A stretch of DNA of 50,938 nt from Bacteroidaceae bacterium (GTDB lineage: Bacteria; Bacteroidota; Bacteroidia; Bacteroidales; Bacteroidaceae): assembly GCA_017448965.1 (NCBI GenBank), contig JAFSKK010000065.1, positions 1 through 50,938 on the forward strand, given 5' to 3'. The notes under the pieces were generated by a model. It saw nothing but the letters and a program-made list of their open reading frames with translations. It was not told the DNA's origin and made no database searches. Made by a program: the position numbers and the translations under genes. This document shows, in pieces, positions 6,466 through 43,136 of this stretch; position 1 is the first letter of the stretch, and every line of letters begins with the position of its first letter.

Positions 6466-6500
6466 TTGAAAATTGAAAGTTGAAAATTGAAAACTGAAAG
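6466..6500 (+). repeat. Five-heptad tandem repeat upstream of pyrK
   Basis: Exactly five 7-mers: TTGAAAA, TTGAAAG, TTGAAAA, TTGAAAA, CTGAAAG. The module ends 2 nt before the pyrK ATG and starts 6 nt after the nuclease stop. Each unit contains TGA, so it closes all three frames. It belongs to the stop-to-start repeat class described in the findings. Confidence 0.9.
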
Positions 6501-6502
6501 AT

Positions 6503-7279
6503 ATGAAGAAATACGTAAAGGATTTGACGGTGAAGGCGGTGGAATTTCCGCATGAGTTGTACGTGCTGTTGAAACTCACGGATAAGGAAACTTTGCCAGA
6601 AACAGTACCTGGTCAGTTTGTGGAAGTGAAGGTGGAGGGAAGTCCTCGGACGTTCTTGCGCCGACCCATCTCCATCAACTTCGTGGACAGGGAAAAAAAT
6701 GAATTGTGGCTGCTCATCAAGAAGGTGGGTGAGGGTACACACAAGTTGGCTGAGTTGAAGGTGGGCGACACCCTGAATCTGGTGTTCCCCTTGGGTAATG
6801 GTTTTTCGCCTGTTCAGAAGGAGGACGAGAAGGTGCTGCTGGTGGGAGGTGGCGTTGGTGTGGCTCCCTTGCTCGATTATGGGCAGTATCTGAAGGCGCA
6901 TGGTGCCAACCCTGTGTTTCTGCTGGGTGCCAGGAGCAAGAGTGACCTTTTGGAACAGGAACTCTTCAAGGCCATCGCGCCTGTCTATGTGACGACGGAA
7001 GACGGCTCTGAGGGCGAACGTGGCTTTGTGACGCAACACACATTATTAAATAAAGAGCACTTCGACCGCATCTCCGTGTGTGGCCCCAAACCCATGATGG
7101 TGAGTGTGGCAAGGTATGCGAAGGCAACGAACACCCCTTGTGAGGTGAGTCTTGAGAACATGATGGCTTGCGGCTTGGGTGCCTGCCTCTGTTGTGTGGA
7201 GAAGACTGTGAAGGGCAACGTGTGCGTGTGCAAGGAAGGCCCCGTGTTTGACATTAACGATTTAACTTGGAACATTTAA
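6503..7279 (+). CDS. pyrK: Dihydroorotate dehydrogenase B, electron transfer subunit
   Basis: Flavin and iron-sulphur subunit that passes electrons from PyrD to NAD+ in class 1B dihydroorotate dehydrogenase (pyrimidine synthesis). The 258 aa show an FAD-binding barrel (RTFLRRPISINF near residue 50), an NAD-binding half (LLVGGGVGVAPLLDYGQ near 112), and a C-terminal cysteine cluster for the [2Fe-2S] centre (MMACGLGACLCCVEKT followed by VCVCKEGPVF). It lies 3 nt upstream of pyrD in the usual pyrK-pyrD pair. Confidence 0.96.
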   Translation: MKKYVKDLTVKAVEFPHELYVLLKLTDKETLPETVPGQFVEVKVEGSPRTFLRRPISINFVDREKNELWLLIKKVGEGTHKLAELKVGDTLNLVFPLGNGFSPVQKEDEKVLLVGGGVGVAPLLDYGQYLKAHGANPVFLLGARSKSDLLEQELFKAIAPVYVTTEDGSEGERGFVTQHTLLNKEHFDRISVCGPKPMMVSVARYAKATNTPCEVSLENMMACGLGACLCCVEKTVKGNVCVCKEGPVFDINDLTWNI

Positions 7280-7282
7280 GGT

Positions 7283-8194
7283 ATGGCAGATTTAAGGACA
7301 AAAATAGCGGGTCTTGAGATGAAGAACCCCGTGATGACGGCATCGGGCACGTTTGGTTATGGTGTGGAATTTGCCGACTTCGTGAATCTGGAAGAGATTG
7401 GCGGCATCATCGTGAAGGGCACCACGCTCCATCCTCGCGAGGGAAATGACTATCCACGCATGGTGGAGACAGCCAGCGGTATGCTGAATTGTGTAGGTTT
7501 GCAGAACAAGGGTGTTGACTACTTCTGCAAGCACATCTATCCTGAACTCAAGAACATCAAGACGAATTTTCTTGTCAACGTGAGCGGCTCGTCGCCTGAA
7601 GATTATGCCGAATGTGCTGCACGTGTGAATGAACTTGACGGGATTCCTGCCATCGAACTGAACATCTCTTGCCCCAACGTGAAGCAGGGCGGTATGGCTT
7701 TTGGCGTGACAACTGAAGGTGCTGCCGCTGTGGTGAAGGCTGTTCGTGAGGCTTGTCATAAGACTTTGATTGTCAAACTATCGCCCAATGTTACTTCAAT
7801 CTCTGATATAGCATTGGCTGTGCAGGATGCGGGAGCCGATGCCGTCTCGCTCATCAACACGCTGATGGGGATGGTCATCGACATTGAGAAGCGTAAGCCT
7901 GTGTTGAGCATCGCCACGGGAGGCATGTCGGGGCCAGCTGTGAAGCCCGTTGCCGTCCGTTGTGTGTGGCAGGTGGCCAAGGCTGTCCAGATTCCCGTGG
8001 TGGGCTTGGGCGGCATCATGAATGCTGAGGATGCCATCGAGTTCCTTCTGGCAGGAGCATCGGCTGTGGAGATCGGTACGGCCAACTTCATCGACCCTGC
8101 TGTGACCCTGAAAGTGGTGAAGGGCATCGACGAATGGCTTGACCGTCATGGGTGCAAGTCAGTAAGCGAAATCATCGGACAACTGGATGCATGA
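7283..8194 (+). CDS. pyrD: Dihydroorotate dehydrogenase B, catalytic subunit
   Basis: Oxidises dihydroorotate to orotate using FMN, the fourth step of UMP synthesis; class 1B because it is paired with PyrK. 303 aa. It starts with [17 protein letters not shown] (FMN phosphate and substrate region), and the catalytic base is Cys130 in [13 protein letters not shown], as in class 1 enzymes. Later FMN-binding motifs are [11 protein letters not shown] and [28 protein letters not shown] (split here by eye into its two halves). Its stop codon overlaps the start of the next gene as ATGA, so the helicase gene is translationally coupled to it. Confidence 0.97.
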
Positions 8195-11034
8195 GTGAAG
8201 GGAAGCGTGTCCGTTTCGTGGTGCAGCGCATAGAGGAACCTTACATCTATGCGCTTGCAGGAGATGTGCCATCGGGGGAACTCTTTCGGGTGGATGTCTC
8301 GACGAATCAGCACACGCTCCAAGCTTCGCAGATGCTGAAGGAGGGCATGCAGTTCAACGCCCTCTCCTTCACGATAGATGCCGAGGGTGTCTATCATCCC
8401 CAGTATATCGTGATAGAGCCTGATTTCCTGCTCGACACAACGAGTGTGACTGGTTGCATCAAGGGGTGGGGCGAATCGGCTTTCAACCATTTCATTGCGA
8501 AGTTCAAGCCTTTGGAAAACACGAAATACACGTTGTTGGGCGACTTTGCCAATCAGTTTCTCGACGATGCCTTCAACTCGCCCGATGCCGACTATCTCAC
8601 CTCGATGCGCAAGGTGTTTGCCGAGCGTGCCATCGACATCTGCGCCTGTCAGGGCATCAATGCCTCTTTCTTCGAGGAGACGAAGCGGCAGTTCGCCCAC
8701 ATTCAGCAGGTGGTGAAGGAACTCTACCAGCAGCCTTTCATGCATAGCGGCAAGGTGGACATCCACATCGAGCCTTCTTTCTTCTGCGAGGCGCTGGGCT
8801 TGCAAGGACGTATGGACTGTCTGATTGACCTCGACGACGAAGGCAAGAAGTTCCTCATCGAGTTGAAGTCGGGCAAATGGGATGAGTATCGCAACCGCTC
8901 GAAGGAGGAGCACCTCATGCAGATGCTGCTCTACAAGGAAATCCTCTTCTACAACATGGATGTGCCGCAAACGGATGTGATGGGCAACCTGCTCTATTCC
9001 AAATATCCACATTTGCAGGAACAAAGCAGTTTCCCAGAGATGGTGTTTCGAGCCATGAACATCCGCAACAGCATTGTGGCGATGGAAATGGGGCTGCTGC
9101 AAGGGGAAGCACGTCAATGGGTGCCTCGTCTCACTCCTGAAGCCTTGAGGCGCAATCCGAATTGTAGCGAGAAGTTCTGGACAGTATGGTGCATGCCCGA
9201 AATCAAACCTGTGACCGATGCCTTGCACGGGATGGACGAACTGACGGCTGAATACTTCCAGACTTTCCTCCAATTTATTGAGCGGGAACAATATGACAGC
9301 AAGATGCCAGACACACGTCCTGATTCTACACGCACACTCTCCTCGTTGTGGAATGCCGACTTGCAGACGAAAATGGACAATGGCGACATCTTCCTAAATC
9401 TCATCATCGTTGACTTGAAATGGAAGGATGGGGTGGTGGCCGTCTGTCTCGAACCTTCCAACGATACTGACAACATTCCCAACTTTCGAATAGGGGATTC
9501 CGTTATTCTGTATAAACGAAACGCCGAAACTGATTCGGCCATTACCCAACAGGTGGTGCGTTGTGGAGTGGAGTCATACGAAGGTGAACGCATCTGGCTG
9601 AGACTGAAGAACCCTCAACGCAGCAAGGGTGTGTTCAGTCGAGAGGATCTGTATGCCATCGAGCACGACCATGTGGATGCCAACTACCGAAGCCTCTATA
9701 GTGGTTTGTTCTCCCTGCTGACCTGCAAGAAGGCTCGTCGCGACTTGCTGCTCTGTCAACGGAAGCCCACCTCCGACGATATGTTCCTTCTGATGGGACC
9801 TCCTGGAACAGGAAAAACGTCTGTGGCGCTGAAACGGATGGTGGAGGAGCATTTGGAACAGCAGCACAATATCCTCTTGCTCGCCTACACCAATCGTGCT
9901 GTGGATGAGATTTGCGAGATGCTTGGCACCATAGACCCTCAAGTGGATTATATCCGTATGGGACGTGAACTCTCATGTGCCCCTCAGTTTCAGGAACATC
10001 TCCTCATTCGTGCCGTTGCACCCCTCACCACTCGTCAACAAGTGCGGGAGATGCTGGAGGGGAAACGTGTCTTTGTCAGTACCGTTGCCTCGATGAATAG
10101 TCATACAGCACTCCTTCGACTCAAGCACTTTCAGGTGGCCATCTTCGACGAGGCCTCCCAACTGCTCGAACCTCAAATCATGGGCATCCTCACTTCTTCG
10201 GCCATCGACAAGTTCATCATGATAGGCGACCACAAGCAACTGCCTGCTGTTGTGGTGCAGGACGAGGGTAAGTCGGCTGTCACATCTCCCTTGCTTCATG
10301 CCATCGGTTTGACCAATTGCCGCAATTCCTTCTTTGAGCGTCTTTATGAGCAGAACCGAGAGAATGCAGATGTGGTGGCCATGCTTGATCATCAGGGGCG
10401 CATGCATCCAAGCATCGCAGATTTTGCGTCTGCCGCATTTTACGAAGGGCGTCTGCTTCCTGTCGGATTGCCGCATCAGAAGGAACCCTTGGCTTATGCT
10501 GTTTATGACCATGAAGACCCTGTGGAGAGTTTGGTGGCCACCCGTCGTTGTGCCTTCATCAATGTTCCATGTCCATTGCCAGAAGAACGGACACCTAAGG
10601 CCAATATGCTGGAAGCACGAATGATTGCCCAACTCATCAGGGCTGTTGTTTCGTTGCATGAGAAGAACGGAAAATCTTTCGAACCTGCCCGTCAAGTGGG
10701 TGTCATTGTGCCTTTCCGACGACAGATTTCTCTTGTCCGTTCTGAAATTGCCAAAGTGCTGCCAAAAGTGGCTCAAGAGTTGGTGATAGATACTGTGGAG
10801 CGCTATCAAGGTTCCCAGCGCGACATCATCATCTATGGTACCACCATCACCCAACCCTACGAACTCGAAATCCTCTCCAATCTCGTTGAAATGCCTTCGG
10901 GTATAGTTGACCGCAAACTCAATGTGGCCATCACACGTGCCCGTAAGCAACTCTTCATTTTGGGCAATCAAAAACTGCTGACACAGAATGCACTGTATCA
11001 GCAGTTAATAGAGTATTGTCGTTCCTCACTCTAA
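8191..11034 (+). CDS. Dna2-like protein: PD-(D/E)XK nuclease domain plus superfamily 1 helicase
   Basis: 947 aa. The N-terminal half carries a PD-(D/E)XK nuclease signature: Asp209 in [11 protein letters not shown] and Glu224-x-Lys226 in [10 protein letters not shown], followed by a Q/Y motif ([10 protein letters not shown]). The C-terminal half is an SF1B-type helicase of the Dna2/NAM7/Upf1 group: Walker A GPPGTGKT at 536-543, Walker B IFDEASQ at 651-657, GDHKQLPA, the RMHPSIADF motif, and [11 protein letters not shown] with [11 protein letters not shown] at the end. The Fe-S cysteines of eukaryotic Dna2 are not evident. Probable role in processing replication or repair flaps (inference). 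I start at ATG 8191, which overlaps the pyrD stop (ATGA); an in-frame ATG at 8152 lies inside pyrD. Confidence 0.88.
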
Positions 11035-11063
11035 ACTCTCAACTTTCAATTTTCAACTTTATT
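11029..11063. repeat. Five-heptad repeat spanning two convergent stop codons
   Basis: Five 7-mers on the plus strand: CTCTAAA, CTCTCAA, CTTTCAA, TTTTCAA, CTTTATT. The TAA of the helicase gene (11032-11034) is inside the first unit and the stop of the ettA-like gene (11059-11061, minus strand) is inside the last. Reverse-complemented, the core reads TTGAAAA, TTGAAAG, TTGAGAG, the same family as the repeat before pyrK. Confidence 0.88.
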
Positions 11064-12756: not shown

Positions 12757-12762
12757 CTTGAG

Positions 12763-12798
12763 ATTTACTATTTAACGATTTACGATTTACCATTTAAC
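12763..12798. repeat. Five-unit repeat (7-8-7-7-7) between nadE and ettA
   Basis: Plus-strand units: ATTTACT, ATTTAACG, ATTTACG, ATTTACC, ATTTAAC. On the coding (minus) strand every unit contains TAA. The nadE stop codon (12794-12796) is inside the last unit and the ettA start (12754-12756) follows 6 nt after the module. The 7-8-7-7-7 layout is shared with 14774-14809 on the other side of nadE. Confidence 0.85.
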
Positions 12799-14767: not shown

Positions 14768-14773
14768 AAGATT

Positions 14774-14809
14774 ATTTACTATTTGACGATTTACTTTTTA
14801 CTATTTTTC
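14774..14809. repeat. Five-unit repeat (7-8-7-7-7) upstream of nadE
   Basis: Plus-strand units: ATTTACT, ATTTGACG, ATTTACT, TTTTACT, ATTTTTC. It fills the space between the GH2 stop (14818-14820) and the nadE start (14765-14767). It has the same unit layout as 12763-12798, but the units are more degraded. Confidence 0.75.
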
Positions 14810-14817
14810 GGCAGAAC

Positions 14818-20266: not shown

Positions 20267-20352
20267 GTTGTTCATAACTTACGGATAATTATTCATAAGT
20301 TACGGATAATTATTCATAACTTATGAACAAATATTCATAACTTATGAACAAC
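20267..20352. repeat. Palindrome array B (inverted near-copy of array A)
   Basis: Four palindrome units on the plus strand with axis bases C, G, C, C, e.g. TTCATAACTTATGAA. The reverse complement matches array A (4532-4614) at every position except the four axes, where each base is swapped G for C or C for G. It lies between mltG (stop 20426) and the GH43 start (20221). The downstream 70 bp are G/C-rich and contain ACCGTC/GACAGT-type words. Confidence 0.9.
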
Positions 20353-26215: not shown

Positions 26216-26755
26216 ATGGAAAATTTCAGAGATTTGGTGCAGAAGCGCCGTAGTGTGCGCAAGTTCACCGACGAGGATATTAAGGCAGAAGACCTCCAGA
26301 CAATTCTTCGTGCTGCATTGATGTCTCCCACCAGCAAAGGCACTCGTGCTTGGCATTTTGTGGTGGTGGACGATCCTGTCTTGTTAGAGAAGATTTCTCT
26401 CTGCCGTCCTATGGGGAGCCAATTTATTGCAGGTGCCAAGGTGGCCGTCGTGGTGTTGGGCGACAGGGAAGTGACGGATGCTTGGTGTGAGGATGCTTCA
26501 TTGGCTGCTGTCACCATGCAGTATCAGGCTACAGACCTTGGTTTGGGCTCCTGTTGGTGCCAGATTCGTAACCGCTTCATGGAGAACGGCGAACCATCAG
26601 ATAATGTGCTCCGTTTCCTGCTTCGCTATCCAGAAAACCTGACGGCTGAATGTGTCATTGGCCTCGGCTATCCTGCCATCGAACGCAAACCACAGGATGA
26701 GGATAAATTGAAGTGGGAGAATGTGCATGTGGGGCCTTTTCCAGAGGAGGATTGA
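26216..26755 (+). CDS. Nitroreductase-family flavoprotein
   Basis: 179 aa. The N-terminal FMN-binding motif QKRRSVRKF and the ILRAALMSPTSKGTRAWHFVV stretch are typical of the small nitroreductase-fold oxidoreductases (split here into recognised blocks). The end contains CVIGLGYPAIERKP. Family members use FMN and NAD(P)H to reduce nitro compounds, quinones or enones; the native substrate cannot be inferred. It probably starts an operon with DUF2520, kdsC and maf; the only promoter-like element is a weak TAACTTTAC at 26176. The stop codon lies inside the first unit of an octamer repeat. Confidence 0.9.
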   Translation: MENFRDLVQKRRSVRKFTDEDIKAEDLQTILRAALMSPTSKGTRAWHFVVVDDPVLLEKISLCRPMGSQFIAGAKVAVVVLGDREVTDAWCEDASLAAVTMQYQATDLGLGSCWCQIRNRFMENGEPSDNVLRFLLRYPENLTAECVIGLGYPAIERKPQDEDKLKWENVHVGPFPEED

Positions 26756-26781
26756 AGAATTGAAAAATTGAAGAGTTGAAG
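26752..26781 (+). repeat. Octamer tandem repeat between nitroreductase and DUF2520 genes
   Basis: Units TTGAAGAA, TTGAAAAA, TTGAAGAG, TTGAAG. The first unit contains the stop codon of the upstream gene (26753-26755) and the array ends 5 nt before the next ATG (26787). Confidence 0.88.
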
Positions 26782-26786: not shown

Positions 26787-27560
26787 ATGAAAATAGTGTT
26801 GATAGGGGCGGGCAATCTTGCCACCAATTTGGGTAAGGCGCTGTTTCATGCAGGACATGAAATCGTGCAGGTGTATAGCCGCACGGAGGAATCTGCCAAG
26901 ACTTTGGCGTCGGTGCTGAAATGCCCTTACACCACTCAGACAGAAAACGTGGTGAGGAAAGCGGATGTGTTTGTGGTTGCGGTGAAAGATGCCGCACTTC
27001 AAACGTTAGCATCCTCTTTGCAAGTTAGTCGCGAAGGACAGTTGTTCGTTCATACGGCAGGCAGTATGTCGATGGATGTTTTGTCTTTTGAACGGCGAGG
27101 TGTGTTCTATCCGATGCAAACTTTCTCTAAAAATAAAGAGGTGGATTTCAGTGTGATACCTTGTTTTGTTGAAGCGGTAAATGAAAATGATATTCAACTG
27201 CTGAAGAAACTTGCGTTAACCATCTCTGACACCGTTTACGAACTCGACAGTGAGAATCGCAAGTACCTCCATCTGGCAGCTGTCTTCTGTTGCAACTTTG
27301 CAAACCATTGCTTTGCGTTGAGTGCCGATCTGCTGAAAGAACACGGCAACATACCCTTCCATGTGATGCTCCCTCTGATTGACGAGACGGCAGGCAAACT
27401 CCATTCGCTTTTGCCCCGGGAGGCACAGACAGGCCCTGCTGTACGTTGGGATACCAATGTGATGGACAAGCATCTGCAACTGCTCTCTGATACACCTGAG
27501 ATACAAAAAATATACGAATTACTGAGTAAAAGCATACACGAGGAAGAGTTGAAGAATTGA
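26787..27560 (+). CDS. Rossmann-fold oxidoreductase with DUF2520 domain
   Basis: 257 aa. The N-terminal NAD(P)-binding motif is GAGNLATNLGKALFHAGH, followed by a dehydrogenase-like first half (VFVVAVKDAAL, LFVHTAGSMSM) resembling 6-phosphogluconate or ketopantoate reductases. The C-terminal helical half (CCNFANHCFALSADLL) is the DUF2520 type. The biochemical role of this family is not established to my knowledge. Its last residues, EELKN, are encoded by the octamer repeat, which also supplies the stop codon. It lies upstream of kdsC-like and maf genes in the same direction. Confidence 0.88.
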   Translation: MKIVLIGAGNLATNLGKALFHAGHEIVQVYSRTEESAKTLASVLKCPYTTQTENVVRKADVFVVAVKDAALQTLASSLQVSREGQLFVHTAGSMSMDVLSFERRGVFYPMQTFSKNKEVDFSVIPCFVEAVNENDIQLLKKLALTISDTVYELDSENRKYLHLAAVFCCNFANHCFALSADLLKEHGNIPFHVMLPLIDETAGKLHSLLPREAQTGPAVRWDTNVMDKHLQLLSDTPEIQKIYELLSKSIHEEELKN

Positions 27561-27564
27561 AGAA
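27549..27564 (+). repeat. Two octamer units overlapping the DUF2520 stop codon
   Basis: TTGAAGAA twice in a row. The stop TGA (27558-27560) lies in the second unit. Confidence 0.75.
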
Positions 27565-27587
27565 CCTTTAAGAGTCAATAGAAGAAT

Positions 27588-28106: not shown

Positions 28107-28678
28107 AAGGCTACAAGGTGATATTGGCCAGCAATTCGCCTCGACGCAAGGAGTTGCTGGGAGGACTGGGCATTCCTTTCGAGGTGCGCACGTTGAGTGG
28201 TATCGACGAGAGTTACCCCGACACCCTTTGTGGTGAGGAAATCCCCATGTATATCTCAGGCAAGAAAGCCGAGGCTTATCAGCAGTCGATGGCCGACGAT
28301 GAGATGATCATCACGGCAGACACCATCGTCTATGACAACGGGCAAGTGCTTGGCAAACCCAAGGATAGGGAAGAGGCTATTCAGATGCTGCGCCAACTCT
28401 CAGGACATGCCCACGAAGTCATCACAGGCGTGTCGATTGTGACGAAGGAAAAGACCTCCCAATTTGCCTCCACCTCAAAGGTGTTTTTCGCTTCCTTAAC
28501 TGACGAAGAAATAATCTATTATGTAGATCATTATCAACCTTTCGACAAGGCTGGTGCCTATGGTGTTCAGGAATGGATTGGCTATGTGGCGGTCACCCGC
28601 ATCGAAGGCTCCTACTTCAACGTGATGGGCTTGCCCATCCAACGGCTCTACACAGAACTGAAATCATTCTCTTTCTGA
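28073..28678 (+). CDS. maf: Maf-family nucleotide pyrophosphatase
   Basis: 201 aa. The hallmark N-terminal motif [14 protein letters not shown] is present, with later conserved blocks [24 protein letters not shown] and [10 protein letters not shown]. Maf proteins hydrolyse (modified) nucleoside triphosphates such as dTTP/UTP and are a nucleotide-pool cleaning or septation-linked function. I start at ATG 28073, inside the end of kdsC, because it gives the expected short leader before the motif. Confidence 0.93.
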
Positions 28679-28714
28679 AAATTCAGATTACTCAGAATAC
28701 TCAGAATACTCTGA
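28679..28714 (+). repeat. Nonamer tandem repeat between maf and the Lrp-type gene
   Basis: Four 9-mers: AAATTCAGA, TTACTCAGA, ATACTCAGA, ATACTCTGA, starting directly after the maf stop codon. Similar in position to the 7/8-mer junction repeats but with a different word. Confidence 0.75.
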
Positions 28715-28736
28715 TAACTCCCGACAAAACGATCAC

Positions 28737-33488: not shown

Positions 33489-33524
33489 GAGTGATGAGTT
33501 TCTGCGGAGACTCATCACTTTTTT
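33489..33524 (+). terminator. Rho-independent terminator of the 706-aa protein gene
   Basis: Arms AGTGATGAGT and ACTCATCACT with a 10-nt loop, then T6. Confidence 0.92.
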
Positions 33525-33547
33525 GTGCTCCAACAGGAGCGTCGTAG

Positions 33548-33616
33548 CCGTAATTACGTTTACGCCACTAACGTAATTACGGTAACGTCGTTGAGGTAAT
33601 TACGGCAACGTCGTTG
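33548..33616. repeat. Palindromic tandem repeat C (GTAATTAC core)
   Basis: Two 23-bp units, 33571-33593 and 33594-33616, differ at two positions (ACGTAATTACGGTAACG... versus AGGTAATTACGGCAACG...), and a partial third unit with CCGTAATTACG starts at 33548. The core GTAATTAC is palindromic. It lies between two facing terminators, so it is outside any transcribed gene. Confidence 0.85.
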
Positions 33617-33662
33617 CTGTATAGGTGGTTGTTTCGTGCCCGTCGCGATGACTATGACACAC

Positions 33663-33688
33663 AAAAAAAGCCTCCATTGAGGAGGCTT
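33663..33688 (-). terminator. Rho-independent terminator of the DUF4738 gene
   Basis: Arms AAGCCTCC (33668-33675) and GGAGGCTT (33681-33688) with a 5-nt loop. On the minus strand the stem runs into T7. Confidence 0.92.
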
Positions 33689-33715
33689 CCGATGTGGTTG
33701 TTATGTCGTTGTTGT

Positions 33716-34306: not shown

Positions 34307-34339
34307 AGGTATGGGGTGTTATTTTTTGTTATTTATGAT

Positions 34340-34380
34340 GCAAAGATAAGTATTTTTATATTCATAATTCCTACCTTTGC
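34340..34380. promoter_or_regulatory. Divergent promoters for the DUF4738 gene and map
   Basis: Minus-strand TATCTTTGC (34340-34348) faces the DUF4738 gene. Plus-strand TACCTTTGC (34372-34380) faces map, giving a leader of about 25 nt. Confidence 0.75.
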
Positions 34381-34410
34381 ATGAAATTTTATTGAAACAA
34401 ATTTGAAGAC

Positions 34411-35274: not shown

Positions 35275-35280
35275 ATATAT

Positions 35281-36297
35281 ATGTATATTTTGGCGATAGA
35301 AAGTTCGTGTGACGACACGAGTGCGGCAGTCTTGAAAGACGGTATTTTGTTGAGCAATGTGACCGCCTCGCAAGCCGTGCATGAGGAATATGGTGGGGTG
35401 GTGCCTGAATTGGCGAGCCGTGCTCATCAGCAAAACATCGTGCCTGTGGTGGATGCAGCCATCAAGCGGGCAGGTATCACGAAGGAAGACCTCAATGCTG
35501 TTGCCTTCACAAGAGGGCCGGGTTTGATGGGAAGCCTTTTGGTGGGTGTGAGTTTTGCCAAGGGCTTTGCAAGAAGTCTCGGCATTCCGATGATTGACGT
35601 GAACCACCTGCAAGGTCATGTGTTGGCTCATTTCATCCGTGAGAGTGAAGATGATCACGATCAGCCGACTTTCCCATATCTGTGTTTGCTCGTCAGTGGC
35701 GGCAATAGCCAGATTGTGAAGGTGAACTCCTATAAGGATATGGAGATATTGGGACAAACCATTGACGATGCGGCTGGTGAGGCGATTGACAAGTGTTCCA
35801 AAGTGATGGGGCTTGGCTATCCAGGTGGTCCTATCATCGACAAGTTGGCGCGTCAAGGAAATCCAGAGGCATTCGAGTTTTCGAAACCAGACATTGCAGG
35901 TTACGATTACAGTTTCTCAGGCTTGAAGACTTCGTTCCTCTATCATCTGAGAGATTGGTTAAAGGACGACCCTGACTTCATCGAGCACCACAAAGAAGAC
36001 TTAGCGGCATCGTTGGAGAAAACGATTGTTGATATCCTTATGAAGAAACTCCGCAAGGCGGTGAAGGACACGGGCATCAAGCAGGTGGCTGTGGCTGGTG
36101 GTGTGAGTGCTAACAACGGACTTCGTAACGCATTCCGCGATCATGCGAGGCGCTACAAATGGAAGATTTTCATTCCAAAGTTCTCCTACACGACTGACAA
36201 TGCGGCTATGATTGGCATTACGGGCTACTTCAAGTATCTCGACAAAGACTTTGCATCCATTGATTTACCTGCCTACGCACGAGTGGAAAAGTTGTAG
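35281..36297 (+). CDS. tsaD: tRNA threonylcarbamoyladenosine synthase subunit TsaD
   Basis: Transfers the threonylcarbamoyl group to A37 of tRNAs that read ANN codons, with TsaB and TsaE. 338 aa, ASKHA fold: N-terminal AIESSCDDTSAAVL, metal ligands His109 and His113 in VNHLQGHVLAHF, LCLLVSGGNSQIV, and the C-terminal SYTTDNAAMIGI. The stop codon TAG (36295-36297) sits in the first unit of an octamer repeat. Confidence 0.97.
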   Translation: MYILAIESSCDDTSAAVLKDGILLSNVTASQAVHEEYGGVVPELASRAHQQNIVPVVDAAIKRAGITKEDLNAVAFTRGPGLMGSLLVGVSFAKGFARSLGIPMIDVNHLQGHVLAHFIRESEDDHDQPTFPYLCLLVSGGNSQIVKVNSYKDMEILGQTIDDAAGEAIDKCSKVMGLGYPGGPIIDKLARQGNPEAFEFSKPDIAGYDYSFSGLKTSFLYHLRDWLKDDPDFIEHHKEDLAASLEKTIVDILMKKLRKAVKDTGIKQVAVAGGVSANNGLRNAFRDHARRYKWKIFIPKFSYTTDNAAMIGITGYFKYLDKDFASIDLPAYARVEKL

Positions 36298-36315
36298 AAT
36301 TGATAAATTGAAGTG
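36292..36315 (+). repeat. Three-octamer repeat between tsaD and rsmE
   Basis: TTGTAGAA, TTGATAAA, TTGAAGTG: three 8-mers filling the gap exactly. The tsaD stop lies in the first unit and the rsmE ATG (36316) directly follows the last. Confidence 0.85.
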
Positions 36316-37059: not shown

Positions 37060-37063
37060 CATC

Positions 37064-38548
37064 ATGAAAAAGTTTCATTTAATTGCAGCGGTGGTGCTGG
37101 CAGTCTTAGCGTTGAGCTCTTGTACCAACACGGATTACAAGAATGTGATACCTGCTAACGCACCATTGGTGATGGAAGTCGATATACGCTCGATTGCAGA
37201 AAAGAGCGAGTTTCAGCAATCGAAAGGTATGCAAGAGTTGGAGAAAAGTCTCTCGGCTGTTGTTGCTGCCAAGGACATGGAGAAGGTGAAAGGATACATC
37301 GAAGATCCCATGTCAATGGGTATTGACTTTAGTATGCCTGTCTATGCGTTTATGGTGGACATGCAGACGTTGGGCTTGACCATGAAGGTGGATGATGAGG
37401 ATGCCGTGAAAGATTTCCTGTTGTTGCTCAACAAGCAAGGTATGGCTTCAAAGCCTCAAGAGAAGAACAATTTGATTTGTGGCACCTTGTTGGATGACGT
37501 GTCTTATACATACGATGGTACTACATTCCTTTTGTTGGCATCGCTGGAGAAAAGTGGTGGTGCCAAAATGTCAAAATTGGCGCAACGGTTGATGGATCAG
37601 AAGAGGGAAGACAGTTTCTTCTATGTGAAAGATGTTTGGAAAACTGAACTGTATGGTCCTGTGAAATGCTATGCCTGCGGTGGCAATTTGCCCAAGGAGG
37701 TGATGACTCCATTGCTGGAGCTCTTCCCTAAGAACATCAAACCTTCAGACGTGGACGTTGTGGCTGACCTCAACTTTGAGAAAGGAACGGCAACCCTCAC
37801 TACGGCTTTGATTGCTAAGACTGATGAGGCGCAGAAGTTGATTGATGAGGCGAACGAGAACATGAGCAAGATAGAAGGCCGTTATCTTGACAAGGTGTCT
37901 GACAATGCTGTGATTTGGATGGGTGCAGGCGTGAAAGGAAAGTGGTTGCTGGAGAAAATCAAGGCGAACAAGACGCTGAACGGTTTGCTGTTTGCTTCAG
38001 AACGGGCAGTTGATGCGGGGCAGATGCTCCAAGCAATTGATGGAGATGTCTCTTTGGAACTTTCCGCTTCAGAAGTGAACCCAAACGATGTGGAATACAT
38101 GATGTATGCAAAGTTGGATAACTCGAAATTCCTTGCCGATGTGAATGACTGGAAACAGAGCCACAAAGAGTTTGGCATCGACATGAAAGATAAAGGAAAC
38201 AACCAATATCTACTCACATTGGATGGACAGACATACGAATGGGGCGTTCAGGATGATGACCTCTATTGGGGAACTGTTCAGGCATTCAATCATTCGAAGG
38301 AATCGACAGGCGCCTTTTTGAGGCCATACGAGAAAGCAATTAAGAAAAGTCAAGTGTTCTTCATTCTTGATTTGGATGCGTTAGGAAGAGAGGCTGGAAT
38401 GAGCACTGTGGGTTTGGCCTCACAGGTGTATGGGCATTATCTCCACATCAACCGCATCATTGTGCAATCATGGTCAGCAAACGGAATGGCTCTGACCATA
38501 GTGCAGGAGAACCAGGACGAGAACTTCTTGAAACAAATACTTCAATGA
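37064..38548 (+). CDS. DUF4836-family lipoprotein
   Basis: 494 aa. Signal peptide with lipobox LALSSC (Cys about 20). The start of the mature part (NVIPANAPLVMEVDIRSIAEKS) and the later LSASEVNPNDVEYMMYAKLDN are typical of DUF4836, a Bacteroidales family related in layout to the DUF3352-type paired-domain lipoproteins. Function unknown. Its TGA overlaps the ATG of the ABC ATPase gene (ATGA), suggesting that the three genes work together. Confidence 0.85.
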   Translation: MKKFHLIAAVVLAVLALSSCTNTDYKNVIPANAPLVMEVDIRSIAEKSEFQQSKGMQELEKSLSAVVAAKDMEKVKGYIEDPMSMGIDFSMPVYAFMVDMQTLGLTMKVDDEDAVKDFLLLLNKQGMASKPQEKNNLICGTLLDDVSYTYDGTTFLLLASLEKSGGAKMSKLAQRLMDQKREDSFFYVKDVWKTELYGPVKCYACGGNLPKEVMTPLLELFPKNIKPSDVDVVADLNFEKGTATLTTALIAKTDEAQKLIDEANENMSKIEGRYLDKVSDNAVIWMGAGVKGKWLLEKIKANKTLNGLLFASERAVDAGQMLQAIDGDVSLELSASEVNPNDVEYMMYAKLDNSKFLADVNDWKQSHKEFGIDMKDKGNNQYLLTLDGQTYEWGVQDDDLYWGTVQAFNHSKESTGAFLRPYEKAIKKSQVFFILDLDALGREAGMSTVGLASQVYGHYLHINRIIVQSWSANGMALTIVQENQDENFLKQILQ

Positions 38549-39189
38549 ATAAGATAGAACTGATTCATACGCTGCCTAACGTGTTTCAGAGTCGTACAGA
38601 TATTGTGAGCGACATCTGGAATCAGGACGTAACTTTTGAGAAGGGCAAGAAATATCTGGTGGAAGCCAATTCGGGCACGGGCAAATCGTCGTTGTGCAGT
38701 TATATTTATGGGTATCGCCACGACTATCAGGGGCAGATACTCTTTGATGGCGAGGACATCCGCAGATATGCGGTGGCAAAGTGGACGGACATCCGCAAGA
38801 ATCACTTTGCCCTGTTGTGGCAAGAGTTACGCATGTTCCCAGAACTGACTGCTTGGGAGAATGTGGAAATCAAGAATAAACTGACGGGGTATCAGACAAA
38901 AGAGCAGATTCTTGAATGGTTTGATATGCTGGGCATCACAGATAAACTGGATGCCAAGATGGGACGCATGTCGTTTGGTCAACAGCAACGTGTCGCATTG
39001 ATTCGTGCCTTGTGTCAGCCTTTCGATTTCCTGTTTGTCGATGAACCTATCAGCCACTTGGACGACACCAACTCGGCCATCATGGGACGCATCATGACTG
39101 CTGAGGCTGACAAACAGGGTGCGGGCATCATCGCTACGAGTATTGGCAAGCATATCGATTTGGAGTATGAAAGAGTGTTTAACCTATAA
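38545..39189 (+). CDS. ABC transporter ATP-binding protein (LolD/MacB-like)
   Basis: 214 aa. Walker A EANSGTGKSSL, Q-loop LLWQELRMFPELTAWENV, signature MSFGQQQRVALIRAL, Walker B FLFVDEPISHLDD. The signature is FGQQQ rather than SGGQQ, which is a mild deviation. Size and sequence fit the LolD/FtsE/MacB ATPases that drive FtsX-type permeases rather than substrate pumps. Start by the ATGA overlap with DUF4836. It is directly followed by the permease. Confidence 0.92.
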   Translation: MNKIELIHTLPNVFQSRTDIVSDIWNQDVTFEKGKKYLVEANSGTGKSSLCSYIYGYRHDYQGQILFDGEDIRRYAVAKWTDIRKNHFALLWQELRMFPELTAWENVEIKNKLTGYQTKEQILEWFDMLGITDKLDAKMGRMSFGQQQRVALIRALCQPFDFLFVDEPISHLDDTNSAIMGRIMTAEADKQGAGIIATSIGKHIDLEYERVFNL

Positions 39190-40401
39190 ATGGTGATGAA
39201 GATGAAACTGGTTTGGAAACTTTTAAGACAGCACATCAGCATCCCGCAGTTTTTGGGGTTCTTCTTTGCCAATCTGGTGGGTGTGGTCATCATACTGCTG
39301 GGTGTGCAGTTCTACAACGACTATAAGGCACTTGACAATGAGGATAGTTTCATGAAGGCTGACTATCTGATTGTCAACAAGAAGATAGGTGCACTTTCAG
39401 GCTTGACGGGCAAGAGCAATGCTTTCACCCGTGCAGAAATTGAGGAACTGAAGAATGAGGACTTTGTGGAACGCATCGGTGCTTTCACGCCCAGTTCCTT
39501 CAATGTGAAAGCTCGCTTTGATGTGGAGGGTTTTGTGAACTTCTCCACAGAGATGTTCTTCGAGAGTGTGCCAGATGAGTTTGTCGATGTGAAGAGTGAT
39601 GCGTGGGATTATCAGGAGGGGAGCAACGAAATTCCCATCATCCTGCCTAAGAACTACCTTGACCTCTATAACTTCGGTTATGCACAAGGAAAGGGATTGC
39701 CCAAACTCAGCGAGGGCATCTTGGGCGCGATGAAACTGAATGTTCAGATTGCGGGCAATGGAAATAATGATAGTTTTGACGGCCGCATTGTCGGCTTCTC
39801 ATCACGCCTCAACACGATTCTGGTGCCTGAGAAATTCATGCAATGGGCGAATCAGCAATATGCTGACGGTGAGGCTGTAAAAGAACCGACGCGACTGATT
39901 ATGGAGGTTAACAATCCTACCGATGACCGCATCACCAGTTATTTGCAGGAACGTGATTATGAGACGGACGAAGACAAACTGGATGCCTCAAAGACCACTT
40001 TCATTCTGCGTGTTATTGTCAGCATCGTGATGGTGGTGGGTATGGTCATCAGCATTCTTTCTATTTACATCTTGATGTTGAGCGTGTTCCTTCTTGTGCA
40101 GAAGAACAGCACCAAGCTGGAGAACCTCTTGCTCATTGGCTTTTCGCCTGCCAAAGTTTCCTTCCCATATCAGGCATTGACGGTGGGGTTGAACGTGCTG
40201 GTGTTCGTTTTGGCGGTAGTCATCATGTTGCTGGTGAGAGGCATCTATTTGGAGATGTTCGAGAACTTCTTCCCCGACCTTCAGGTGCCAGGCATTTGGC
40301 AGGCATTGGTTGTGGGCATGGGCTTGCTGGTCATAGTAAGCATCTTCAACATCATTGCTGTGTATGGTAAGGTGATGAGCATTTGGAAAAGAAAGGATTG
40401 A
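39190..40401 (+). CDS. ABC transporter permease, FtsX/MacB-like
   Basis: 403 aa. One N-terminal membrane helix (FLGFFFANLVGVVIILLGVQF), an extracytoplasmic domain of about 220 residues, then three C-terminal helices (VSIVMVVGMVISILSIYILML, LNVLVFVLAVVIMLLV and VVGMGLLVIVSIFNIIAVY). This 1+3 topology is that of FtsX/LolCE/MacB permeases, which act mechanically on periplasmic partners. The stop codon of the ATPase gene directly precedes its ATG. The likely partner is the DUF4836 lipoprotein encoded just upstream (inference). Confidence 0.9.
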   Translation: MVMKMKLVWKLLRQHISIPQFLGFFFANLVGVVIILLGVQFYNDYKALDNEDSFMKADYLIVNKKIGALSGLTGKSNAFTRAEIEELKNEDFVERIGAFTPSSFNVKARFDVEGFVNFSTEMFFESVPDEFVDVKSDAWDYQEGSNEIPIILPKNYLDLYNFGYAQGKGLPKLSEGILGAMKLNVQIAGNGNNDSFDGRIVGFSSRLNTILVPEKFMQWANQQYADGEAVKEPTRLIMEVNNPTDDRITSYLQERDYETDEDKLDASKTTFILRVIVSIVMVVGMVISILSIYILMLSVFLLVQKNSTKLENLLLIGFSPAKVSFPYQALTVGLNVLVFVLAVVIMLLVRGIYLEMFENFFPDLQVPGIWQALVVGMGLLVIVSIFNIIAVYGKVMSIWKRKD

Positions 40402-40421
40402 AGAATTGAAGAATTGAAGTT
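40398..40421 (+). repeat. Three-octamer repeat between the ABC permease and kinase genes
   Basis: TTGAAGAA, TTGAAGAA, TTGAAGTT. The permease stop TGA (40399-40401) lies in the first unit and the next ATG (40423) follows the last by one base. Confidence 0.88.
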
Positions 40422-40422
40422 T

Positions 40423-42006
40423 ATGGATAGAATCATTCATCTCTATAAGGGTTTGACAGGCGCAGAGCCTCAAAGCATCATTCCGTTGGCAGGTGCTGGC
40501 AGCAATCGACGGTATTTCCGCGTCTATGGCGGCGAAGAACTCTTGACTCTTGCTCCTTGCTCCTTGCCCCTTAATTCTCTCATCGCTGTCATCGGAACCA
40601 ATCAGGAAGAGAATGATGCCTTTGTTTATCTGTCCCGCTTCTTTCGGACAAACGATTTGCCTGTGCCTTCTGTGCTGGCTGTTTCAGAAGATCAAATGGT
40701 GTATCTGCAGGAGGATTGTGGCGAGGTTTCTCTGTATTCCTTCATGGCTCAACATCGACAGGAGGATGGCACGTTGGATGCCGAAGCCCTTACAACTTTG
40801 CGACAAACCATTCAGGTGTTGCCAAGTTTTCAGTTCTCAACTGTTGATAAAGATGAAGCAGAGGAGATTTTTGCCCATTGCTATCCACAACGCGAGATGG
40901 ATAGAACCAGTGTTATGTTCGACCTCAACTATTTCAAGTATTGCTTTCTGAAATTGGTGGGTGTTGAGTTTAACGAGTTCAAGTTACAACAGGATTTTGA
41001 ACGCTTGGCGGATGATTTGTTGATGGAGAAGGAGAACACTTTCCTCTATCGAGACTTCCAATCGCGTAACGTGATGCTGAAGGAAGGAAAGCCTTATCTC
41101 ATCGACTTTCAGGGTGGTCGCAAAGGACCTATCTACTACGATGTGGCGTCATTCCTTTGGCAGTCGTCGGCAAAGTTCTCTGACGAGCTGCGCAATTTGC
41201 TGATTGATGAATATCTCGCGGCTTTGCAGTCCTATAAGAAGATTGCTAAAGAAGTCTTCTTGCAACGTCTCCACCTCTTCGTGCTTTTCCGCATTTTGCA
41301 GGTGCTTGGCGCATACGGCTACAGAGGCTTGTGGGAAAAGAAGGTTTATTTTGCCAATAGCATTCCATTGGCCATCAATAACTTGCAAAAGGAACTCTCA
41401 TTGGCCACATGTGATGCTTATCCTTTCCTAAAGGGGGTCTGCCAATCTCTCATCGCGTGGAATGCTGAGAAAGAAAAGATTTGGGCAACCGAAGCAGCCA
41501 AGAAAGCCAAAGTGGCTGCCTATCTGCAAAACGACAAGACATACATTCCGAATGGTTTTCTCCCCACAGAAGGGGGGATGTCCGCAGGACAGAGGGGGTC
41601 TTCTCTTCTTGTTCGTGTTTTCTCTTTCTCTTTCAAGAAGGGGATACCAGAAGATGAAAGCGGAAATGGTGGCGGCTATGTGTTTGATTGTCGCAGCACT
41701 CACAATCCTGGACGTTATGACGAATACAAACCTCTCACGGGTTTAGATCAACCAGTCATCGATTTTCTTGAAGCAGATGGCGAGATTCTCACCTTCCTTG
41801 AGAGCGTGTACAAAATCGTCGATTTCCACGTCGCCCGTTTTAAGGAGCGCGGCTTTGCCAACATGCAGATTAGTTTTGGCTGTACAGGTGGTCGCCATCG
41901 TTCTGTCTATAGTGCTCAGCACGTTGCAGAACACATCCACGAGAAGTTTGGCGTGGAAGTACGTATTTGCCACAGAGAACAAAATATCACACAAGAACTC
42001 AAATAA
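40423..42006 (+). CDS. Fusion of an AmgK-type sugar kinase and a RapZ C-terminal domain
   Basis: 527 aa. Residues about 1-370 are an aminoglycoside-phosphotransferase-like kinase of the AmgK type (N-acetylmuramate/N-acetylglucosamine 1-kinase): AGSNRRYFRV near the N-terminus, catalytic Asp211 in LYRDFQSRNVML and metal-binding Asp228 in LIDFQGG. Residues about 398-527 are a RapZ-C domain (KKGIPEDESGNGGGYVFDCR, THNPGRYDEYK, then SFGCTGGRHRSVY), the part of E. coli RapZ that binds glucosamine-6-phosphate. The next gene encodes a MurU-like enzyme, the usual AmgK partner. This suggests an amino-sugar salvage kinase regulated by GlcN6P (inference). Two repeat-derived segments lie inside: a five-heptad module (40540-40574) near residue 45 and a G-rich palindrome (41560-41600) in the linker. 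The catalytic residues are intact. Confidence 0.85.
   Translation: MDRIIHLYKGLTGAEPQSIIPLAGAGSNRRYFRVYGGEELLTLAPCSLPLNSLIAVIGTNQEENDAFVYLSRFFRTNDLPVPSVLAVSEDQMVYLQEDCGEVSLYSFMAQHRQEDGTLDAEALTTLRQTIQVLPSFQFSTVDKDEAEEIFAHCYPQREMDRTSVMFDLNYFKYCFLKLVGVEFNEFKLQQDFERLADDLLMEKENTFLYRDFQSRNVMLKEGKPYLIDFQGGRKGPIYYDVASFLWQSSAKFSDELRNLLIDEYLAALQSYKKIAKEVFLQRLHLFVLFRILQVLGAYGYRGLWEKKVYFANSIPLAINNLQKELSLATCDAYPFLKGVCQSLIAWNAEKEKIWATEAAKKAKVAAYLQNDKTYIPNGFLPTEGGMSAGQRGSSLLVRVFSFSFKKGIPEDESGNGGGYVFDCRSTHNPGRYDEYKPLTGLDQPVIDFLEADGEILTFLESVYKIVDFHVARFKERGFANMQISFGCTGGRHRSVYSAQHVAEHIHEKFGVEVRICHREQNITQELK
40540..40574 (+). repeat. Five-heptad repeat inside the kinase coding region
   Basis: Five 7-mers: CTCTTGA, CTCTTGC, TCCTTGC, TCCTTGC, CCCTTAA. 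They encode LLTLAPCSLPLN in a loop between AGSNRRYFRV and SLIAVIGTN. As far as I remember, related kinases have a much shorter loop here. The module has the same length and unit number as the one before pyrK. Confidence 0.8.
41560..41600 (+). repeat. G-rich palindromic insert in the kinase/RapZ linker
   Basis: CTCCCCACAGAAGGGGGGATG followed by the palindrome TGTCCGCAGGACA and AGAGGGGGTC. It encodes PTEGGMSAGQRGS in the inter-domain linker. Composition differs sharply from the surrounding gene. It resembles G/C-rich intergenic repeats seen in other Bacteroidetes, but no second copy was noticed in this window. Confidence 0.5.
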
Positions 42007-42720
42007 ATGAACGCACTTATATTCGCAGCAGGTCTTGGCACCCGCCTCAAACCTCTTACCGACACGATGCCTAAAGCAATGGTGCCTGTCAACGGCAGGC
42101 CTCTCGTGCAGATTCTCATAGAGAAGCTGAAAGGCATTGGCGTAAACGAAATAGTGATTAATGTCCATCACTTTGCTCAGCAAATCATCGATTTTGTGGA
42201 AGCCAACAACAGCTTCGGCATCAATATCAAGTTCAGCGATGAAACTGGTATGTTGCTCGAGACGGGTGGAGGGCTGAAAAAGGCTGTCCGTCTCTTTTCA
42301 GACGAACAGCCTATTCTTGTTCACAATGTGGATATCCTCAGCAATGCTGACCTTTTTTCTCTCTACAACAATGCTGAGACAACCACTCTTCTTGTCTCCC
42401 AACGTGACACCCAGCGTTACCTTCTTTTTGATGACACCAATCGTCTCATCGGTTGGAAGAACATTGCCACGGGTGAGTATAAGTCACCTTTCCCTGATAT
42501 AAAAGAACGTCCTTCGCGTGGGTTGGCTTTCTCTGGCATTCAGGTCTTCCATCCCTCTCTGTTGCCTCTGATGGATTCTTGGCAAGGCAAATTCTCTATC
42601 ATCGATTTCTACCTTTCCATTTGCGACAAGGTGGAAATCAAAGGCTGCTTCGACCCACAACTGCAGTTGCTTGATGTGGGCAAATTAGACTCCATTGCTA
42701 AAGCCGAAGCCTTTTTGTAG
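42007..42720 (+). CDS. MurU-like sugar-1-phosphate nucleotidyltransferase
   Basis: 237 aa. The GT-A-type nucleotidyltransferase signature FAAGLGTRLKPLTDTMPKAM is at the N-terminus, with VHNVDILSN (metal Asp) in the middle. In the AmgK-MurU pathway the MurU enzyme uses the sugar 1-phosphate made by AmgK to form UDP-MurNAc, bypassing de novo synthesis. Position directly after the kinase stop (no gap) supports that role; other NDP-sugars are possible. It is the last gene of the plus-strand run, convergent with the STAS gene, with only 28 bp between and no obvious terminator. Confidence 0.87.
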   Translation: MNALIFAAGLGTRLKPLTDTMPKAMVPVNGRPLVQILIEKLKGIGVNEIVINVHHFAQQIIDFVEANNSFGINIKFSDETGMLLETGGGLKKAVRLFSDEQPILVHNVDILSNADLFSLYNNAETTTLLVSQRDTQRYLLFDDTNRLIGWKNIATGEYKSPFPDIKERPSRGLAFSGIQVFHPSLLPLMDSWQGKFSIIDFYLSICDKVEIKGCFDPQLQLLDVGKLDSIAKAEAFL

Positions 42721-42748
42721 CCGTAGAGGAGGAGTTCTAGAAGTGGCT

Positions 42749-43054
42749 CTATTTGAACTCGAATAGATTGATGAAGCCAGTCATGGTGAACACCTGTCGG
42801 AGGTCGTTGCTCAACTCACGGATATAGACGTGATGGCCATTAGCCTTTGTGCTTTTGAGAATGCTGAGGAAGATGCGGAGACCACTTGATGAGATATACT
42901 CCAGCTTTGAGCAGTCGAGGATGATGTCATGATCGGTGTTGTCGATGAGTGGCTTCACATCAAGTTGTACTTGTGAGGCTGTTGCTGTGTCGAGACGTCC
43001 TTCGAAGTACATCACATAATCGTTATTCTCTTCTTTTAATGTTGTTTTCATCAT
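42749..43054 (-). CDS. STAS-domain anti-sigma factor antagonist
   Basis: 101 aa, a single STAS domain: VMYFEGRLDTATASQ and IILDCSKLEYISSSGLRIFLS. The expected phosphorylation site is Ser57 in SSSGLR, as in SpoIIAA/RsbV. Its partner is the phosphatase-kinase fusion encoded just upstream, so the two probably form a partner-switching pair in which the kinase domain phosphorylates, and the PP2C domain dephosphorylates, this protein. The output (a sigma factor or another target) is not in the window. Confidence 0.92.
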   Translation of the reverse strand: MMKTTLKEENNDYVMYFEGRLDTATASQVQLDVKPLIDNTDHDIILDCSKLEYISSSGLRIFLSILKSTKANGHHVYIRELSNDLRQVFTMTGFINLFEFK

Positions 43055-43096
43055 AATTGTTATTGATTTTATAGTGAATAATTTAAGTTTGACTTC

Positions 43097-43136
43097 TCTT
43101 TAATTTTTCAATGTCCCCATTTTTCAACTCTTCAAT
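43097..43136 (-). repeat. Five-octamer repeat between the SpoIIE-type and STAS genes
   Basis: Minus-strand 8-mers: TTGAAGAG, TTGAAAAA, TGGGGACA, TTGAAAAA, TTAAAGAG. The stop codon of the SpoIIE gene (43124-43126) lies in the second unit, and its last residues (EELKS) are encoded by the repeat. Confidence 0.78.

Follow-up and report, generated by a model that had tools for sequence, protein, structure and literature searches.

Arrays of short tandem units between the stop codon of one gene and the start codon of the next are probably the arms, in part left-over ones, of a family of small elements that resemble the intervening sequences (IVSs) of 23S rRNA. The arrays were noticed in a stretch of 50,938 nucleotides (contig JAFSKK010000065.1 of assembly GCA_017448965.1, our contig C15), referred to here as the window. 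It belongs to a 3.03-Mb rumen Bacteroidales genome of 74 contigs that is 85.6% complete. A first-pass annotation of the window had described the arrays as possible translational punctuation. A full element consists of an array of 7-10-nt units, a core, a gene for a four-helix-bundle protein of the PF05635 (S23/IVP) family, a second core and the array in inverted orientation. Its place is a stop-start junction of two genes transcribed in the same direction. On the best reading, the window displays mostly left-over arms of such elements.

Most IVP genes are enclosed by inverted tandem arrays

We compiled the statistics of the home genome from the window and 20 other stretches, 450,223 bases in total. 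Eleven of these stretches lay end to end on contig C13, seven on C11 and one each on C40 and C2; those on C40 and C2 were chosen for visible array matches, not blindly. Genes were called with a simple home-made hexamer method, and start positions are approximate. Elements with a gene were present at L036 2207-2675 (type A, 7-mer arms, 122-codon frame) and L049 9205-9733 (type C, with the same 8-mer TTGAARAA arms as in the window, 120-codon frame). Both frames matched PF05635 (S23/23S_rRNA_IVP family) and are called IVP genes below. PF05635 matched in 36 of the 45 genus genomes (34 above the cut-off), with a maximum of 8 matches per genome, and in none of the 14 control genomes. The home genome gave seven matches, but two of them barely passed, and their frames were longer (221 and 226 codons).

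Of the 135 PF05635 matches listed per genome, 70 distinct IVP genes had their flanks measured, each with 100 nt or more of sequence available on either side. The sources were 30 loci returned by the profile search, 40 hit-list regions and 4 earlier regions, with duplicates removed; the flanks of the hit-list regions were unseen at the time of choice, and three regions of the home genome were taken first. An inverted repeat with a score of at least 14 between the 150-nt flanks was detected at 55 of the 70 IVP genes, compared with 4 of 218 control genes that were 80-200 codons long and 2 of 300 other control genes. When periodic arms on either side were required in addition to inverted flanks, 45 of the 70 IVP genes qualified, and 2/218 and 1/300 of the controls. 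The four control matches that were printed included one gene, in two species, with an element of type A or another kind on each side of it.

The two arms of an element matched each other. In loci with two periodic arms the period was identical in all 51, and the inverted unit agreed with at most one mismatch in 43. For period-7 pairs the agreement was 35 of 40, versus 12% for arms mixed between elements. As many as 36 different units occurred among these 51 elements, and period 7 accounted for 45 of the 57 periodic 5' arms.

The elements also shared position and direction. The IVP gene and both neighbours were on one strand in all 54 elements scored (one of the 55 was unscorable upstream), compared with 204 of 321 genes at large that had two co-directional neighbours. 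They did not lie within a 23S rRNA gene, as both neighbours scored as protein genes in 54 of 55. Relative to the upstream stop, the left arm started between -26 and +40 nt except for a single value of 179. In 50 of 55 elements the right arm stopped 0-31 nt short of the next ATG, the other five values being larger. Where the offset of the left arm is negative, the arm reaches back into the upstream gene, which is the pattern behind the first-pass annotation.

The IVP protein is under purifying selection. Of 15 pairs, 3 were saturated and 12 could be computed. For 10 of these the dN/dS ratio was 0.04-0.16, and for the remaining two, each of 98% identity, it was 0.27 and 0.49. One IVP protein, submitted to a structure search of PDB, resembled 2rld. 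At L194 (G011:C25), inverted 8-mer blocks of the GAATACAG and TCTTGTCT types were repeated round an IVP gene and overlapped it.

Arms, cores and gene-less copies

Inspection of whole spacers revealed an inverted twin for many arrays, with a core separating the two. Three families recurred in the home-genome sample. Type A has the unit AGTGAAA and the core ATTTGCTACCGC...GCGGTAGCAAAT, type B has the unit GTTAAAGRA, and type C has the unit TTGAARAA and a core containing GCCATGCGGCG; on the opposite strand this core reads GGGCTGACGCGATGTG...AACTCGCCGCATGGC. The hit list contained 8 gene-less copies of type A (one of them weak and with a different core), 9 of type B and 7 of type C. An array was counted as paired if an inverted partner lay within 600 nt, and 31 of the 64 arrays in the sample were paired by this rule. 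A de novo search of 117 loci returned 55 inverted pairs, with some loci counted repeatedly and a few pairs, such as A-rich 10-mers, clearly unrelated. Their periods were 7 (21 pairs), 8 (20), 9 (7), 10 (5), and 6 and 11 (one each). Complete elements were 100-490 nt long.

The type C core was accompanied by differing arms in different species (TTGAARAA, GAATTAG, ATAATAG, ATTTACC, GATGTAC and ACAATTA). The core is conserved, the letters of the arms are free, and the complementarity between the arms is maintained. A search with the bare 9-mer core CCATGCGGC gave 11 matches in the home-genome sample, 5 of them adjoining arrays, and also hit coding DNA.

In 6 of the 70 IVP genes (L185, L209, L222, L223, L226 and L243), the type C core corresponded to the leader that directly precedes the start codon together with that codon; a seventh case flagged by the script (L193) was unconvincing. 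The CCATGCGG/CCGCATGG motif, with one mismatch permitted at one place, was located within 90 nt of 13 of the 70 IVP genes. The gene was reversed relative to the motif at L049, L202, L216, L219, L228, L231 and L238. At L185, an IVP gene with the type C leader was followed by a gene-less copy that opens identically. To judge from such shared letters, the gene-less copies can be read as internal deletions of IVP elements. This step is less sure for types A and B, because only the outer letters were common to their IVP-bearing copies (L036, L203 and L205; L176 and L183).

One gene-less copy of each type was folded as RNA, giving z = -12.5 for type A, -8.3 for type B and -6.5 for type C; an element of genome G022 gave z = -2.7. 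A known RNA family was rejected for the elements, as Rfam at gathering scores listed nothing but FopS and a tRNA in five stretches of the home genome totalling 99 kb (L036, L049, L035, L039 and L044). The FopS match (RF04319, a Bacteroidetes small RNA family) lay at L049 16300-16369.

The same junction is filled, empty or changed in relatives

We compared the junction between the nitroreductase and DUF2520 genes of the window in 56 relatives. The closest named relatives at the DUF2520 gene were rumen Bacteroidaceae/Prevotellaceae assemblies with a protein identity of up to 91%. The two genes met, for example, in an ATGA overlap without a spacer in L052, L055, L063 and L071, and were only 1-2 nt apart in L062 and L067. 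An 8-mer TTGAARAA array was present in L051, L053 and L059. In L054 and L057 the array was a 7-mer of the GTTTAG type whose unit includes the stop TAG, and L091, L098 and L100 had further 7-mers. These varied states at one junction indicate that arrays appear, vanish and swap their unit at a fixed place. Orthologous spacers measured 48 nt in L054 and 62 nt in L057, and 29 nt in L100 and 43 nt in L098. Both pairs thus differ by two 7-nt units, and the number of units does change by whole units, as the first-pass annotation had supposed.

Stop-to-start gaps at orthologous junctions were also measured across the genus, in regions of up to 20 kb round two element-rich loci, each from 20 of 42 matching genus mates. 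The junction L036 12868/12908 was an ATGA overlap in G049, G015, G006 and G005; other species carried either a GTTTAGA array or an element, of ATTTACC units or of ATAATAG units with a core. At L049 10801/10917, G056 had a full element and G006 a 14-nt stub, and at L036 12321/12476, G047 kept one arm and half of the type A core. The stub and the half element are as expected from decay. Among 70 filled-empty pairs, the related species G013 and G003 had an 8-nt repeat at a single junction, and a 4-nt repeat was seen at ATGA junctions, as gene integrity alone would demand. At the L049 14143/14248 junction of G002 and G010 (L131 and L134), an 8-mer array apparently spans both the stop and a TTG start, the start being judged from alignment to the ATG or GTG starts of relatives.

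Arrays in the window

The arrays of the window are listed in Table 1 with the results of Tandem Repeats Finder (TRF), for which the listing threshold was a score of at least 30. The sequences described in the first-pass annotation were confirmed, and the observation was sound in substance. Six of its seven arrays were returned by TRF; the seventh, at 36292-36315, is degenerate and was not listed. The two extra 7-mer arrays at 12762 and 14773 were missing from its list. It had also placed stop codons inside repeat units. This was correct for the nitroreductase (26755), DUF2520 (27560), tsaD (36297), permease (40401), helicase (11034) and SpoIIE-type (43124, minus strand) genes, and the ettA stop is at the edge of the array. 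Modules of exactly five units were not a rule, as TRF copy numbers ranged from 2.8 to 4.9 across the six arrays. Not every unit of the arrays at large carries a stop codon; GATGTAC in L057 has none.

Table 1 Tandem arrays in the window.
Array	Position	Strand	TRF span (period, score)	Context
7-mer, TTGAAAA	6466-6499	+	6466-6499 (7, 54)	Between two plus-strand genes (stop 6459, start 6503); unpaired, no core seen
7-mer, TTGAAAA/GTTGAAA type (minus-strand reading)	11028-11060	-	11028-11058 (7, 34)	Between convergent helicase and ettA genes; unpaired
7-mer, GTAAATC type	12762-12796	-		Fills the gap of two minus-strand genes; unpaired (12775-12796 in the search for partners)
7-mer, GTAAATA type	14773-14806	-		Between two minus-strand genes
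8-mer, TTGAARAA	26751-26786	+	26751-26781 (8, 48)	Contains nitroreductase stop; terminates in TTGAAGTT
8-mer	27543-27579	+	27543-27564 (8, 37)	Contains DUF2520 stop; continues into CCTTTAAGAGTCAAT
9-mer, TCAGAATAC type	28674-28720	+		Follows stop at 28678; unpaired
8-mer, degenerate stretch	36292-36315	+	Below score 30	Contains tsaD stop
8-mer	40393-40421	+	40393-40419 (8, 47)	Contains permease stop; terminates in TTGAAGTT directly before next ATG
8-mer, degenerate	43097-43146	-	43119-43146 (8, 35)	Contains stop of SpoIIE-type gene

The motif TTGAAGTT is the arm-core border in complete type C elements. Among 36 TTGAARAA-like arrays at home-genome loci, this ending was found in 13 of 18 paired and 7 of 18 unpaired arrays, where the paired/unpaired flag is crude and several other unpaired arrays are chance matches in coding DNA. 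Two of the seven unpaired arrays with this ending are the arms of the L049 IVP element, and two are the window arrays at 26751 and 40397. On the evidence of this border, the arrays at 26751 and 40393 are likely one-armed remnants of elements. The array at 27543 (27548 in the border search) continues into CCTTTAAGAGTCAAT/GAACCTTTAAGAGTCAAT, which corresponds to a second recurring core in shortened form; this core was seen in L001 and in G005, where it reads GAACCTTTAGCTCGACGTTAGTCAAT.

Arrays exceed chance and concentrate between co-directional genes

In the 450-kb sample, intergenic runs of periods 7, 8 and 9 numbered 15, 15 and 14, compared with 0, 1 and 1 in five dinucleotide shuffles, with counts summed over all five. 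No run was found at periods 5 and 6, and one each was found at periods 10 and 11. Coding DNA, about seven times as much sequence as the spacers, contained 8, 0 and 1 runs of periods 7, 8 and 9. The sequence TTGAARAATTGAA had 138 copies in the genome and its reversed control had none. The arrays are therefore genuine and well in excess of chance.

By place, 36 of 54 arrays were between co-directional genes, 3 between convergent genes, 3 between divergent genes, 9 in gene calls and 3 at stretch ends. With the last two classes excluded, there were 36 arrays in 25.1 kb of co-directional spacers and 6 in 16.6 kb of convergent and divergent spacers (odds ratio 4.0, p = 4e-4, bases taken as trials). 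Co-directional spacers were thus fourfold richer per base, and the proposed enrichment at junctions was upheld.

IVP elements beyond the genus

PF05635 was above the cut-off in 183 of 247 Bacteroidota genomes, with a maximum of 16 matches. By eye, many of the best 30 loci of this phylum sample gave the impression of degenerate 7-/8-nt arms. A tblastn search of plasmids with one IVP protein returned 30 records, 13 of them from Nostoc. Fifteen plasmid IVP loci were taken and 14 were measurable; the flank-pairing z was -3 or lower in 11 of these, and in 12 of 300 control genes, all from the home genus. The inverted heptamers were clean, for example AATTCGT/ACGAATT in L285 and L289. The architecture and its association with the IVP gene are well supported in the genus and in cyanobacterial plasmids, and less so phylum-wide.

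Alternative explanations

Plain replication slippage might create such arrays without any element. Duplications of 7-8 bp shift the frame within genes. At stop-start junctions they would be harmless and could accumulate, because a stop is retained in the first copy and a start in the last. The stop codons within units, the sister-species spacers that differ by two whole units, the G002 8-mer across a stop and an apparent TTG start, and the 33 of 64 home-genome arrays that are unpaired are all in line with this account. The window arrays at 6466, 11028, 12762 and 14773 may be plain slippage products. However, one unit and one arm-core border recur at many loci of the genome, the period is common to both arms in every two-armed locus, and slippage alone cannot yield an IVP gene and conserved cores between inverted twins. 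We regard it as an unlikely explanation of the arrays as a whole. Translational punctuation, the proposal of the first-pass annotation in which the number of units tunes the coupling of neighbouring genes, appears decidedly improbable. It agrees with the enrichment of arrays between co-directional genes and with array ends that often lie directly before a start codon, but the units vary between species and elements. With 36 units in 51 elements, some of them stop-less, a three-frame stop device cannot be the common theme. Moreover, orthologous junctions in other species manage with an ATGA overlap, the length of complete elements would be odd for a spacer, and the arrays are frequently arms of inverted elements that often enclose an IVP gene, which speaks against punctuation as their primary nature. 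A secondary influence of the arrays on coupling is conceivable.

Hairpin terminators or attenuators selected at gene ends would suit the location directly behind stops and the strong RNA stems, which were seen in a single copy of each of the types A, B and C. Nevertheless, only 3 of 54 arrays lie between convergent genes, where terminators are expected to be common, the corresponding junction is empty in many relatives, and the IVP gene is left unexplained, so this origin of the gene-less copies is very improbable. Hardly any credence can be given to REPIN- or MITE-like copies mobilised in trans by a transposase (Y1/RAYT or other). Such copies would have the inverted ends and dispersal seen here and could spread in lineage bursts like those of TTGAARAATTGAA, which had 138, 116 and 64 copies in three species and 0-21 in 22 genus mates. 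The letters of the arms are not conserved, however, and the 70 filled-empty pairs disclosed no regular duplication. PF01797 was above the cut-off in 14 of 45 genomes and had no match in the home genome (85.6% complete); a REPIN/RAYT system was rejected on this absence, the Y1 family being the only transposase family searched.

Several results weigh against the view that the arrays derive from IVP elements as present or left-over arms. Besides the 33 unpaired arrays, 15 of the 70 IVP genes were below the inverted-flank score (including L186, L187, L197, L210, L211 and L217), and 4 of the 51 two-armed genus elements agreed in the direct, not the inverted, unit. Apart from the repeats mentioned above, the 70 filled-empty pairs had no regular target-site duplication. 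In the phylum sample, only 10 of the best 30 loci reached an inverted repeat score of 14, and 6 had a flank-pairing z of -3 or lower, compared with 41 of 70 in the genus set. A Treponema locus (L276) had same-direction heptamers on both sides. In the window, none of the eight arrays detected had an inverted partner within 600 nt and a search for an IVP frame found none, so that its arrays are linked to the elements only via unit, border and core; no such link was found for the four arrays named above that may be slippage products. Two single window arrays were folded as RNA, and neither formed a stem. With these points taken into account, we still consider an origin of the arrays as arms of a small IVS-like element family to be probable.

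Proposed life of the element

If the arrays are arms of IVP elements, the arms would pair into a long stem in polycistronic RNA. By analogy with the 23S rRNA IVS, RNase III would cut this stem and thereby free the IVP message. Slippage would lengthen and shorten the arms, and copying from arm to arm would keep both alike. Loss of the gene would leave array-core-array, and more loss would leave a single arm, as in the window. The element would persist at gene junctions because neither neighbour is broken there. RNA excision by RNase III, mobility of the element and a role of the IVP protein are inferred.

Heptamer arrays in bacterial spacers have so far been reported without a carrier, and the link to IVP genes would supply one. 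It would join the arrays and the IVP gene in a single element, with arms whose letters are free and whose complementarity is kept and with a protein that belongs to the element. If this is true, it would account for the clustering of 7-10-nt units at stop-start junctions, imply that polycistronic messages in Bacteroidota and cyanobacteria contain cut sites in many cases, and offer a model for intervening sequences outside ribosomal RNA. A wider extension is conceivable but rather doubtful: most bacterial heptamer-type repeats (STRR, TAACTGA and long simple repeats) might be arms or remnants of one class of free-living IVS elements that bear a conserved S23/IVP gene whose protein serves them, fold in RNA, are excised by RNase III and insert stop-to-start on the transcribed strand.

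Comparison with known systems

The IVS in the 23S rRNA of Coxiella burnetii is 428 nt long (444 nt in an older report) and carries an S23 gene, a 28-bp inverted stem and tandem GACAGAT heptamers of varying number; it is excised by RNase III (PMC4990558). S23/IVP proteins have no known function according to the same source. The present elements share with the 23S rRNA IVS the S23/PF05635 family, the inverted stem round the gene, the adjoining heptamers and a known decay of the open reading frame. The heptamers beside the gene are common to the Coxiella IVS, and the change in unit number was seen here in unpaired arrays. Unlike the 23S rRNA IVS, these elements lie between protein genes, and their arms are long tandem arrays built from 36 units. 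The Coxiella protein was judged probably not made (PMC4990558), in contrast to the purifying selection on the protein here. As for the open reading frame of the 23S rRNA IVS, complete elements carry PF05635, and gene-less copies and window arrays lack it.

TAACTGA repeats are known from Beggiatoaceae, cyanobacteria and some Bacteroidetes and were read as translational regulatory sites (PMC4679880). Like the present arrays, they are stop-bearing direct repeats of heptamers near starts, some of which overlap the upstream stop. The first-pass annotation knew of no named system; that holds only in part, stop-bearing intergenic heptamers having been published under the TAACTGA name. The arrays differ from TAACTGA repeats in their units and in having inverted pairs, cores and IVP genes, and no TAACTGA array was present among 81 listed runs of the home-genome sample. 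The terms S23, four helix and intervening do not occur in the TAACTGA paper (PMC4679880).

The arrays resemble heptamer simple repeats (STRR/LSSR) in being tandem 7-nt units in spacers, and here 8- and 9-nt units occur as well. Cyanobacteria have STRR/csR repeats. One of them, csR4 (ATTGCGAATTG), has 79 + 26 copies in Nostoc PCC 7120 (PMC2408588). Arms built of its heptamer were found at three IVP loci on Nostoc plasmids (L277, L282 and L287), and the accessible part of that paper draws no link between csR repeats and IVP. In the literature searched, which left preprints and most subscription journals outside, no paper joined IVP genes to tandem-repeat arms.

The BrickBuilt MITE of Porphyromonas gingivalis has 23-nt units in the middle of the element and small inverted ends (PMC4596501). 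It is likewise a small Bacteroidales element with intergenic tandem repeats; here, by contrast, the units are of 7-10 nt and form the arms. The paired elements do have terminal inverted repeats, as expected of a MITE. The IVP protein has a fold related to that of Avd from diversity-generating retroelements (PMC10053308), and two of four IVP proteins gave a weak match to bAvd, under its cut-off. A reverse transcriptase as the partner of an Avd-like protein was rejected, as 20 of the 36 genomes with PF05635 had no RVT_1 match. The match counts of the two families over 45 genomes, with neighbourhoods not searched gene by gene, gave a Spearman coefficient of 0.05 (p = 0.76).

Other repeats

Several other repeats were observed in the spacers. 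Separate 23-nt tandem arrays of several unlike sequences were located at 33549-33616 in the window and at L049 18985-19092, L036 8664-8745, L045 14060-14144 and L050 2876-2917; they have the unit length of BrickBuilt (PMC4596501). A 21-nt tandem family, TTCATAACTTATGAATAATTA, with a palindrome in each unit, was present in several spacers of the genome (window 4532-4610 and 20271-20351; L035 10319, L043 10632 and L044 10512). In L150 and L152, inverted A-rich 10-mer arrays of the AAAAACAAGT type lay upstream of and behind an argG-like gene, adjoining CTTCG-rich hairpins, in L150 at both ends of the gene. A recurrent spacer insert, GACCCTC...AGTAGAAT(C)CTCCCCAC...CATTCTACTC...GGGGAGGGGGTCT, was found in relatives at junctions of L049 (L118, L133, L116 and L130) and L036 (L143 and L144).

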